Source: Ignavibacteriota bacterium
GTDB taxonomy: Bacteria > Bacteroidota > Ignavibacteria > SZUA-365
Direction of reading: 5' to 3'
NCBI GenBank assembly: GCA_016218045.1
Contig: JACRFB010000037.1
Location: 1 to 40,976 of the forward strand
DNA length: 40,976 nucleotides
Shown here: positions 3,700-29,997 of the stretch, piece by piece
How positions within the stretch are numbered: the stretch's first letter is position 1
How the letters are laid out: each line of letters starts with the position of its first letter
Notes under the pieces: model-generated
The model's database searches: none
Seen by the model: the letters and a program-made list of their open reading frames with translations, nothing else
What the model was told of the DNA's origin: nothing
Made by a program: the position numbers and the translations under genes

Positions 3700-3806
3700 G
3701 GAGAGATGGGTGAGTGGCTGAAACCAATCCGCCTTTGGTGGACTAAACCGTCGTAGGGTGTTACGCCCTACCGAGGGTTCTCCGCCGACGGCGGACTCCC
3801 CCTCCG
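3700..3806 (+). repeat. tRNA-Ser-derived repeat, copy F (full length)
   Basis: This is the only degenerate copy that keeps the 5' part of the tRNA: GGAGAGATGGGTGAGTGG matches the parent with two changes. The anticodon arm carries TCCGCCTTTGGTGGA (3728-3742) and the T arm TCCGCCGACGGCGGA (3781-3795). The variable arm is slightly changed (TTACGCCCTACC). It shows that both palindrome replacements could occur in an otherwise complete tRNA gene, and it abuts a long hairpin. Confidence 0.9.
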
Positions 3807-3864
3807 CCCAACGAAGCACGCCTTCAACCGACTTCGTCGCTTGAAGGCGTGCTTCGTTGGGCGG
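3804..3864. repeat. Perfect 24-bp inverted repeat (hairpin)
   Basis: Bases 3804-3827 and 3841-3864 are exact reverse complements (core AACGAAGCACGCCTTCAA). The 13-nt loop contains a further small stem, CGAC-TTC-GTCG (3829-3839). It begins within the last bases of tRNA-like copy F. No T tract follows, so it is not a typical terminator. Its loop is the inverse of the CGACGAAGTC motif found at 3914 and 3952. Confidence 0.9.
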
Positions 3865-27215: not shown

Positions 27216-28412
27216 TCAGCTTTTCGCGATCCAATCTGTGACCGGCCGCATGAGAAAATCGTTCACCGGAATACCATCCGCTCCAACAAGCAACACTGCG
27301 TCCGTCCGGAATTGTTGACGGAAACGTGCGAGACCCGGAAGGACCTCGCGCGGGCGGCCACTTTTTACTTCTATGCCGATGAGCCGTCGGCGTGCATGGA
27401 CGATGAAGTCCACCTCATGTATTCCGTCACGCCAGTAGTACAATTCGATCACTCCCGATGCGGCTGCATTCAGCAGATGTGCACCCACGGACGATTCGAC
27501 CATACGGCCCCACAACGCGGGTTCCTTCCGTACATCCTGCAGCCGATACCCCGCGAGCGCCGTGGAGAGTGCGGTGTTGTAGACTTGAAGTTTCGGACTC
27601 GACGCGCGTCGGCGCACGGTTTCACCCGCCCACTTCTGCAGACCGCACACCATTCCCGATGCCGAGAGCAGCTCGAGATAGTGCGCGAGAGTTGTGGTGT
27701 TGCCCGCATCCTGCAATTGCCCGAGCATTTTTGTAAACGACAGTATCTGGCCCGAGTACATACATCCGAGCTCGAACACGCGGCGTAGCAACGCCGGTTT
27801 GTCGATGCGTGCGAGTTGGAATACGTCCCGCGAAATCGTGGTTTCGACCAGCGCGTTGCGAATGTAATCGCCCCATCTGTCCGGATCGTCGATGAGAGAC
27901 GCAGCTCCGGGATAACCACCGTAACAAATGTATGTGTCCACATCCCACCCGAATGCGTCGCGCATTTCTCTTGCCGACCAGTGGGGGAGGTGCAGGATCT
28001 CGAACCTTCCAGCGAGACTCTCCGTCATTCCCTTTCGCAAGAGCAGCGGCGCCGATCCGAGCAGCACGACCCGCAGGGCTCGCCGTGCGTGCGTATCCTC
28101 ATCCCACAGTCGTTTCACCGTCTCCGACCAGCCGTCGATTTTCTGCACCTCATCCAATACGAAGACACCGCCTCGCTTTCCCATCATGTGCCGTGCGATT
28201 TCCCATTGCTGGGCGATCCATACCCTGTTTTTCAGCTGCGGTTCGTCGGCGCTTGCGATATGAACGGGCATGGAAAGGCGCTCCGAAATCTGTCGCACCA
28301 GCGTGGTCTTTCCTACCTGCCGGGCGCCAGCCAGCACGAGCAGGAATCTGCGTGGCTCCAGAAGACGCGCCTTTAGCGTCTCCGCGTAAGGCCGGGTGTA
28401 CTCCGCACTCAT
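27216..28412 (-). CDS. AAA ATPase with DUF4143 C-terminal domain
   Basis: A 398-residue ATPase of the family often annotated as ATP-binding DUF4143 protein. The Walker A motif is GARQVGKTT (29-37) and Walker B GGVFVLDEVQ (81-90). The C-terminal half has the nuclease-like segment EVDFIVHARRRLIGIEVKSGR, whose Asp, Glu and Lys resemble a PD-(D/E)XK core. The cellular role of the family is unsettled. Copies are scattered and often horizontally transferred. It is convergent with the membrane-protein gene and has a near-perfect palindrome ~80 bp upstream of its start. Confidence 0.92.
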   Translation of the reverse strand: MSAEYTRPYAETLKARLLEPRRFLLVLAGARQVGKTTLVRQISERLSMPVHIASADEPQLKNRVWIAQQWEIARHMMGKRGGVFVLDEVQKIDGWSETVKRLWDEDTHARRALRVVLLGSAPLLLRKGMTESLAGRFEILHLPHWSAREMRDAFGWDVDTYICYGGYPGAASLIDDPDRWGDYIRNALVETTISRDVFQLARIDKPALLRRVFELGCMYSGQILSFTKMLGQLQDAGNTTTLAHYLELLSASGMVCGLQKWAGETVRRRASSPKLQVYNTALSTALAGYRLQDVRKEPALWGRMVESSVGAHLLNAAASGVIELYYWRDGIHEVDFIVHARRRLIGIEVKSGRPREVLPGLARFRQQFRTDAVLLVGADGIPVNDFLMRPVTDWIAKS

Positions 28413-28489: not shown

Positions 28490-28539
28490 ATTTTTACTCA
28501 CAGCGTTGAGTATTTTTACTCAATGCTGTGAGTAAAAAT
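28490..28539. repeat. Near-perfect 50-nt palindrome upstream of the AAA ATPase
   Basis: Two 23-nt arms (28490-28512 and 28517-28539) are reverse complements with one mismatch, around a TTTT centre. Each arm carries TTTTTACTCA and TGAGTA, so the motif TACTCA/TGAGTA is present four times in alternating orientation. It sits in the gap between the divergent ATPase and aminotransferase genes. It could be an operator, a double hairpin terminator or a mobile-element end. Confidence 0.9.
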
Positions 28540-28591
28540 ACGCAGCGGTTACTCTCATGTCAAGTCCGGCGACAAGCCCGGTGTGCCCGCG

Positions 28592-28683: not shown

Positions 28684-29997
28684 ATGAATGCCATTCCCAT
28701 CGACCGCGCGCTCGTGCAGCGCCAGCTTTCCGAAAACGGCCTCACCAACGTCGGGCGCGCCTCCATACGCGAGATCCGTACGCTGATCAACGGCATAGAA
28801 CGCGATTCGGGTGTACACTTCGTACGCATGGAAATGGGCATTCCCGGACTTCCCGCGTCGCGCATCGGCATCGATGCCGAAAAAAAGGCGCTCGATGAAG
28901 GATGCGCGTCGTTTTATCCGAGCATCGAGGGTATCCCCGAATTGAAGCTCGAGATATCCCGCTTCGTGAAGCAGTTCATCGACATCGATGTTGATCCCGC
29001 CGGATGTATTCCGTGCACCGGATCCACGTCGGGAAGTTTTGTCACCTTCCTCGTGGCGGCGCGCATGGATCCCGCGAAAGACACCACGCTCTTTCTCGAT
29101 CCGGGTTTCCCCGTGCACAAATCGCAATTGAAGGTGCTCGGTCTGAAGCAGATGAGTCTCGACGTGTACGAACATCGCGGGGCCAAACTGCGTGAGGCAC
29201 TCGAGAACATCCTCTCGGCCGGGAACATCTCCTCGATCCTCTATTCGAATCCGAACAATCCCACGTGGATCTGTTTCACCGACGAGGAATTGCGCATCAT
29301 CGGCGAACTCGCCACCAGGTACAAGGTGGTCGTGATGGAGGATCTCGCCTACTTCACCATGGACTTCCGCAAGGACTACTCCATACCCGGCCAGCCGCCT
29401 TTCCAGCCCTCGGTCGCAAAATACACCGACCGGTACGTGCTGCTCATCTCGAGTTCCAAGGCGTTCAGCTACGCGGGTCAGCGCGTGGGCATGATCGCCG
29501 TGTCGGATGCGCTTTTCCGCGAGGAGGCCGACGGCCTTCTGCGCTATTACACACGCGCGAGTTTCGGTCATTCGCTCGTGTACGGCGCGGCCTACGCAGT
29601 GTCGGCGGGTGTCACACATTCGAGCCAGTACGGACTCGCCGCAATGCTGCACGCGGTGAACACCGGCGCATACCGTTTTATCGACGATGTGAAGATTTAC
29701 GGCGAACGCGCGCGCGTCATGAAAAAAATGTTTCTCGACAACGGCTTCCGCATCGTGTACGATACCGATGTCGATCAACCGATCGCCGACGGATTCTATT
29801 TCACCGTCGCGTACGGCGACCTGAGCGGTGAGGATCTGATCTTCGAATTCCTGCATTACGGCATCAGCGCCATCTCGCTCTCGAACACGGGCAGCGAACG
29901 CAGGGAGGGCATACGCGCCTGTGTCTCGCTGGTCGCCGACACGCAGCTCCCCGAACTCGAGGCCCGACTCCGTGCCTTCCATGCCGATCATCCCTGA
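28684..29997 (+). CDS. Pyridoxal-phosphate aminotransferase, class I/II
   Basis: The 437-residue enzyme has a fold-type I layout: YPSIEGIPELK near 78-88, the phosphate-binding GSTSGS (113-118), YSNPNNPT (187-194), Asp220 and Tyr223 in MEDLAYF that contact the cofactor ring, and Lys259 in SSSKAFSYAGQRVGM as the Schiff-base lysine. The ending, with an arginine in GIRACVSL, is normal for the substrate carboxylate. Such enzymes transfer amino groups between an amino acid and 2-oxoglutarate; the substrate is not predictable here. ATG 28684 is chosen because the frame upstream overlaps the promoter and palindrome. Confidence 0.93.
   Translation: MNAIPIDRALVQRQLSENGLTNVGRASIREIRTLINGIERDSGVHFVRMEMGIPGLPASRIGIDAEKKALDEGCASFYPSIEGIPELKLEISRFVKQFIDIDVDPAGCIPCTGSTSGSFVTFLVAARMDPAKDTTLFLDPGFPVHKSQLKVLGLKQMSLDVYEHRGAKLREALENILSAGNISSILYSNPNNPTWICFTDEELRIIGELATRYKVVVMEDLAYFTMDFRKDYSIPGQPPFQPSVAKYTDRYVLLISSSKAFSYAGQRVGMIAVSDALFREEADGLLRYYTRASFGHSLVYGAAYAVSAGVTHSSQYGLAAMLHAVNTGAYRFIDDVKIYGERARVMKKMFLDNGFRIVYDTDVDQPIADGFYFTVAYGDLSGEDLIFEFLHYGISAISLSNTGSERREGIRACVSLVADTQLPELEARLRAFHADHP

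Follow-up and report, generated by a model that had tools for sequence, protein, structure and literature searches.

What does a long palindrome do in front of a gene that belongs to an abundant family of candidate defence ATPases? The question is raised by a contig of an Ignavibacteriota bacterium (JACRFB010000037.1, assembly GCA_016218045.1), analysed here over positions 1 to 40,976 of its forward strand (the window), in which a 50-nt palindrome lies upstream of a DUF4143 ATPase gene. A first-pass annotation, made from the letters alone, had offered two readings, namely an operator for autoregulation or a recognition site of the nuclease-like ATPase. The palindrome is an array of regularly spaced half-sites that sits at a predicted promoter, is conserved before the same gene in many bacteria, diverges together with that gene and with the predicted recognition helix of its product, and is rare elsewhere in the host genomes tested. 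It is quite probably the autoregulatory operator of an autonomous one-gene unit, which the ATPase itself would bind and through which it would repress its own gene. The feature extends far beyond the window. The parts of the locus that matter for this reading are the following.

28490..28539 (no strand): putative operator array, a 50-nt palindrome made of two 18-bp palindromes TACTCA-N6-TGAGTA, 22 bp apart, with a TTTT joint
28495..28500 (plus strand): half-site TACTCA
28507..28512 (plus strand): half-site TGAGTA
28517..28522 (plus strand): half-site TACTCA
28529..28534 (plus strand): half-site TGAGTA
28539..28544 (plus strand): degenerate fifth half-site TACGCA (TGCGTA on the minus strand), with the register kept
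28558..28563 (minus strand): -35-like TTGACA of the putative ATPase promoter, a consensus match only
28535..28540 (minus strand): -10-like TATTTT, 17 nt from the -35 and overlapping the edge of the palindrome, a consensus match only
27216..28412 (minus strand): ATPase gene, AAA_14 plus DUF4143, 398 amino acids, PADLOC PDC-S01

The palindrome itself was found as annotated, with 23-nt arms that differ by a single mismatch, a 4-nt TTTT centre and all four hexamers, and the start codon of the ATPase gene (28412, minus strand) is 77 nt away, close to the 80 bp that had been given. Its inverted-repeat score is 20, whereas none of 20 first-order shuffles of the window gave a score above 12. Three mismatch-free copies of TTTTTACTCA occur in the window, every one of them within the palindrome. 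The genome-wide motif search that had been proposed as a check found TGAGTAWWWWTACTCA, with up to one mismatch, only at the palindrome in the source genome (4.77 Mb, 72 contigs); two further places appear when two mismatches are allowed. Since a TTGACA and a TATTTT spaced by 17 nt adjoin the palindrome on the minus strand, transcription of the ATPase gene would be expected to start inside it.

Comparison with close relatives, also proposed at the outset, bears out the link between palindrome and gene. Public genomes yielded 80 loci, and the upstream regions of 78 could be scanned (in L072 and L082 the match begins inside the protein); TACTCA or TGAGTA was present within 300 bp upstream in 60 of the 78, often directly before or across the start codon. 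Close homologues did not lack the palindrome, as the exact composite occurred in 41 of 77 loci, always upstream (counted by hand from printed lists). Other sequences take its place in 13 of the 18 loci without the hexamer; examined singly, 12 of these repeat at a lag of 21 or 22 (at least three hits) and L063 gives one hit. The remaining five comprise one locus at a contig edge (L026), three with broken frames (L033, L086, L087) and one that is intact and array-free (L028), and all five were left out of the periodicity and class statistics. The near-duplicates L079 and L089 were left out of some statistics, and in one comparison step eight loci had no usable frame.

With up to two mismatches, 55 of 73 loci hold 98 sites between them, whereas shuffles would yield 0.7. 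The step from one site to the next is 22 bp in 41 of 43 cases and 44 bp in the other two. The letters of the half-sites are nearly fixed across loci. Self-similarity at a lag of 22 reached 438 in 59 TGAGTA loci (10.7 ± 5.7 in shuffles, 7 in the downstream control) and 251 in the 13 loci with other sequences (4.0 ± 3.4 in shuffles, 0 downstream), so other clades have different repeats at the same place as the TGAGTA array. Carriers of TGAGTA belong to 16 phyla by record label (52 of 76 rows labelled) and include many metagenome-assembled genomes but also isolates, for example of Parapedobacter and Mucilaginibacter. A TTGACA-like -35 followed after 16-18 nt by a TAAAWT, TAAACT or TAATAT -10 lying in or against the operator linker was counted, again by hand, in 13 of 94 upstream regions. 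The array stays with the gene, and on the strength of such consensus matches it is predicted to sit at the gene's promoter. Long arrays of a 22-bp unit with TTGAGAATTTT or close forms precede the gene in L074 and L083, and their copy number differs between relatives.

Beyond the close relatives, distant DUF4143 genes, including a paralogue in the source genome with 26% identity, often have other repeats or palindromes at the same place. When upstream regions were scored for an inverted repeat or an 18-26-bp direct repeat, a score of at least 10 was reached by 28 of 58 distant and 43 of 70 close DUF4143 genes, against 6 of 154 upstream regions of neighbouring genes (L212 was left out from one step of the distant comparison onward). 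The family as a whole thus seems prone to a start-proximal repeat or palindrome whose letters depend on the clade. Immediately before the second DUF4143 gene of the source genome (L172/L281, G000:C24) lie roughly six direct repeats of 23 bp (TGAACTAGCATTCAGCCGAC...).

Among plasmid copies, the array is present in Bacteroides and Collinsella and an altered form is present in Thermus oshimai. On the plasmid pTHEOS01 of the latter (L227), the ATPase gene stands in a series of ABC-transporter genes that share its orientation, about 65 bp from the next gene on either side, as if it had been inserted into an operon. Another Thermus gene (L230), taken to be TT_P0211 because position and domains agree, carries a GAATGACTATCATTC palindrome 4 nt before its start. 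In the accessible part of a study on Thermus, the DUF4143 gene TT_P0211 is reported to rise 6.6-fold in plasmid-bearing, Argonaute-positive cells (PMC4406477). This rise fits an inducible gene and says nothing on mechanism.

The window protein matches the PADLOC PDC-S01 profile PDLC04791 over residues 5-394 (565 bits, 1.9e-170), and the Pfam families PF13173 (AAA_14) and PF13635 (DUF4143) are above cut-off. An AlphaFold2 model built from 71 sequences has a mean predicted local distance difference test (pLDDT) of 91. It is predicted to comprise an AAA/STAND-like core (about 1-145), a lid, a winged helix (206-258) and a PD-(D/E)XK fold, and two elements of the model are of particular interest.

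27639..27797 (minus strand): predicted winged helix, codons 206-258 (model, pLDDT 91; the domain reading is the analysts' own)
27660..27698 (minus strand): predicted recognition helix, codons 239-251, which holds T239 (model and operator-class comparison)

In the C-terminal part, E333 and E348 are invariant and D335 and K350 are at least 90% conserved among the 71 sequences; we assign these residues to a predicted E..D..ExK core of the PD-(D/E)XK fold. Pfam helix-turn-helix (HTH) models match the winged-helix region of the Thermus member, two of them above cut-off, and give sub-cut-off matches in all six distant members tried.

Several lines of evidence bear on which protein reads the operator. 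In 1,389 flanking frames, a single Chloroflexi group (L051, L055, L057-L059, L061, L062, L086) is the only one with neighbours in common, and vertical inheritance seems likely there for that reason; some of them presumably resemble guaA/guaB. On a quick protein tree from which the winged helix was excluded, the operator classes require 3 changes, against a mean of 15.6 for shuffled labels, and 0 of 200 label shuffles were as low. The best of the 398 protein columns for distinguishing the classes is T239, in the predicted recognition helix: T is found at 239 in 75 of 77 TGAGTA loci and in 0 of 14 loci of two other classes. At the adjacent position 240, S occurs in 2 of 94 proteins, which are the two with a TGCGTA operator.

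The same region emerges when similarities are compared directly. Over 81 proteins, operator similarity is linked most strongly to the helix-turn-helix segments, and neither the regional excess nor the top segment was reached in any of 200 permutations. Within the clade of the window protein alone (25 rows that include all four operator classes), the peak was 0.42 at 238-246, with the regional excess reached in 0 and the top segment in 2 of 200 permutations; without this clade the regional excess was reached in 2 of 200. Operator and recognition helix change together, more weakly outside the clade of the window protein. That the operator tracks the helix-turn-helix, that its classes follow the tree and that no neighbour is widely shared argues that the ATPase reads its own operator. 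The autoregulatory half of the first-pass annotation has therefore gained from the promoter position, the co-occurrence in many phyla, the lack of a widely shared neighbour and the co-variation of operator and helix.

In the mechanism that we favour, the winged helix of the ATPase would most likely bind the TGAGTA half-sites, and several copies of the protein would align on one face of the DNA, since the sites recur every 22 bp, or about two helical turns. Bound copies would cover the -10 region and the start of transcription, keeping expression low or absent; repression rather than activation is suggested because the array overlaps both. A change of state in the ATPase, for example on phage infection as a presumed trigger, would then release the array. 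The role of the ATPase itself would presumably be one in defence.

How closely the array is tied to the gene can be judged from its occurrence elsewhere. In 30 genomes picked for holding such loci, with sites placed by hand comparison of coordinates, exact TACTCAN6TGAGTA occurs at 45 sites in 27 genomes (reversed control none), and 40 of these sites lie directly upstream of an intact ATPase gene. Of the other five, three have no such gene in the 1.3 kb or more that was read to either side, one precedes a decayed copy and one is part of a second array close to the gene (G004). A longer pattern was found in 22 of 395 genomes of the phylum (reversed control 0), in 17 of which the array lies beside the ATPase or its remnant. 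The array is kept beside decayed or deleted ATPase copies in L291 (G043), L292 (G004), L423, L425 and L438, and L292 also holds a second array near the gene. Judged by sequence, the decayed copies and the second array are apparent traces of gain and loss. Arrays flank the ATPase gene on both sides in L421 (G324) and L427 (G289), and in the latter the downstream array starts 3 nt past the stop codon. A transposon with terminal repeats was considered and rejected, as arrays at both ends occurred in 0 of 77 loci, G289 and G324 being the exceptions.

The longer pattern is also present in at least 120 viral contigs, in which reversed and re-spaced control patterns gave 0 matches each. Although the pattern left the 4-nt linker free, it consists of A and T only in 120 of the 124 sites among the matches listed. 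These sites fall into 22 context clusters, one of which holds 91 sites and two of which are both strands of one locus. By a mechanical test, 115 of the 120 listed arrays lie outside frames of at least 80 amino acids, although some of the 115 (for example L315, L360 and L414) may still be coding by our reading, and 95 of the 120 have no start of a frame of at least 70 amino acids within 200 bp. The longest frame in 10 contigs tested is related to portal, tail, terminase or ribonucleotide-reductase proteins in six, belongs to a PHROG of unknown function in two and is unmatched in two; a terminase-like gene is present in L365. None of the 120 listed viral stretches encodes a DUF4143-like protein, an absence that holds for the stretch read, since 17 of the 120 arrays are within 400 bp of its end and the stretches may belong to longer contigs. 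An array of TTGAGAATTTT was found in four viral contigs, one with the ATPase and three without it (a pattern run without a reversed control).

It is conceivable, though doubtful, that phages use copies of the operator, placed between their genes, as DNA decoys, or that such arrays let the ATPase recognise phages. In that case the ATPase of the host would form a leashed oligomer on its own array, phased at 22 bp, and the copies in phages would hold it or mislead it. If so, the self-operator would be part of the sensing mechanism, beyond mere regulation. The phage arrays offer a testable link between the family and phages that is independent of guilt by association. Some further features of these regions were noted. 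In the largest group (L296-L415), the intergenic regions look like mosaics of further palindromic modules in variable order. The excess at a lag of 22 outside the array in 72 phage regions was 139 against 13.9; it stems largely from related phages and is not counted as independent. Another 22-bp repeat found in the phage regions (TGATTGATAA) occurs in 0 of the 395 genomes, and a BLAST search with one phage intergenic region gave no match among named phages. The idea that the phage palindromes are operators of other DUF4143 families was unsupported with the set of 96 operators used (a score of at least 13 in 2.0% of comparisons, against 1.3% with the operators' own shuffles).

Several observations weigh against autoregulation by the ATPase. 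Array and gene are not strictly coupled, because 5 of the 22 genomes with the longer pattern have it without an ATPase in the stretch read, as do many phages, and L028 combines an intact frame and T239 with no array. Among distant DUF4143 genes, 30 of 58 have a repeat score below 10. The operator-class labels were assigned by the analysts and L028 was left out of the class comparison; the three operator changes are few events, and clustering of classes is also expected from plain inheritance. L020 and L137 have TGAGTA sites and A or V at 239, and without the clade of the window protein the top segment is not significant (reached in 23 of 200 permutations). No Pfam helix-turn-helix model matches any of the four TGAGTA-operator proteins tried (window, L014, L075, L229), or L063 of the TAATTA class. 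Finally, the accessible part of the Thermus study describes the rise of TT_P0211 as Argonaute-dependent, and its authors discuss CRISPR loci (PMC4406477).

Other explanations of the palindrome have to account for the same observations. The array could be a site of recombination or cleavage, with the ATPase-nuclease as a mobile or homing-like element and solo arrays as landing or scar sites, which is close to the second reading of the first-pass annotation. The divergent aminotransferase gene (28684-29997) shares its intergenic region with the palindrome, and its same-family relatives have no ATPase in the 1.1-1.5 kb read upstream (9/9), as would be expected of a mobile gene; the solo arrays, the arrays beside decayed copies, the gene-less arrays of phages and the two genes with arrays on both sides point the same way. 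However, the exact composite occurs downstream of the gene in 0 of 77 loci, and neither an end nor a target duplication is definable: in seven relatives, up to 12 kb left of the aminotransferase gene, only the aminotransferase itself resembles the window, so the borders of an insertion cannot be defined, and the best matches of the left neighbour are located elsewhere. Moreover, an array at the promoter is kept by the intact gene, which would therefore cut itself, and we regard a mobile element as unlikely. Nor is it probable that the palindrome is the site of a host transcription factor whose regulon the ATPase gene uses. Host operators usually take the form of a promoter palindrome, but the same array precedes the gene across 16 labelled phyla, has few other occurrences in the tested genomes and changes along with residues of the ATPase's own helix.

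Action as RNA, in the form of a leader hairpin controlling translation or termination, would suit strong inverted repeats and the start codons that lie inside the array in some relatives. Against this, the half-site letters are nearly fixed beyond what mere pairing demands, several classes are direct repeats with a 22-bp period, and transcription is predicted to start inside the palindrome, so that the transcript would hold only part of it. Rfam gave no match at the gathering score and four microRNA-family matches below it, which hairpin shape alone can explain; a structured RNA element was rejected on these grounds, and an RNA role is highly improbable. There is next to no likelihood that the palindrome belongs to the aminotransferase gene, in spite of the shared intergenic region. 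The 300 bp upstream of same-family orthologues contain neither TACTCA nor TGAGTA in 8 of 9 cases and a single TGAGTA in the other (L114), none of the nine has the ATPase beside it, and in other loci the array accompanies the ATPase.

An operator controlled by the ATPase itself would add to what has been described for its family. PDC-S01, which the window protein resembles nearly end to end by profile, is ranked fourth in frequency among prokaryotic defences and described as an ATPase domain joined to a PD-(D/E)XK member, with 9,986 copies in archaea and 29,494 in bacteria, and validation is pending for most PADLOC phage-defence candidates (PMC12988326, accessible part). It is also reported to be abundant in rumen genomes (PMC13356809, accessible part). 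The accessible parts of both accounts contain no operator, winged helix, autoregulation, phage-borne site copies or mechanism (PMC12988326; PMC13356809), and no recognised description of this operator was found in the literature outside subscription journals and preprints. As the family is abundant and its mechanism is not described in those parts, the operator gives a handle on PDC-S01. A conserved operator that can be read from sequence allows binding to be tested directly, predicts DNA-reading residues and defines specificity classes.

Known systems offer partial parallels. The helix-turn-helix of the regulator BrxR is winged. BrxR is the nearest working analogue, since, in the accessible part of its description, it is a helix-turn-helix repressor that acts on inverted repeats between its promoter and its own gene, and inverted repeats lie upstream of 193 of 347 BrxR homologues (PMC9122601). 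It differs in being a separate WYL-domain regulator, whereas the ATPase here would be regulator and presumed effector in one; a Pfam search with the window protein gave no WYL model at E values up to 0.1. The sites here, moreover, recur every 22 bp. In fold, residues 1-288 of the ATPase resemble the archaeal ATPases 2qen (PABY2304) and 2fna (SSO1545), the top chains in VIA-align (Z 16.3, 261 residues, root-mean-square deviation 3.3, and Z 16.2, 258 residues, 3.5, respectively). There is also some resemblance to the Orc1/Cdc6 initiators, as Orc1 with DNA is the top row in Foldseek, but the TM-scores there are low, at 0.29 for Orc1. Compared with all three, the ATPase has an extra nuclease-like C-terminal domain. 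Iterons of plasmid origins are likewise direct repeats about two helical turns apart, read by a winged-helix binder that often regulates its own gene, whereas the arrays seen here sit at promoters of one gene.

One other repeat in the window deserves mention. The stretch 3804-3864 holds a stronger inverted repeat than the palindrome, the only one in the window to score above it (26 against 20); it is 61 bp long and G+C-rich, and it resembles a terminator or a repeat element.
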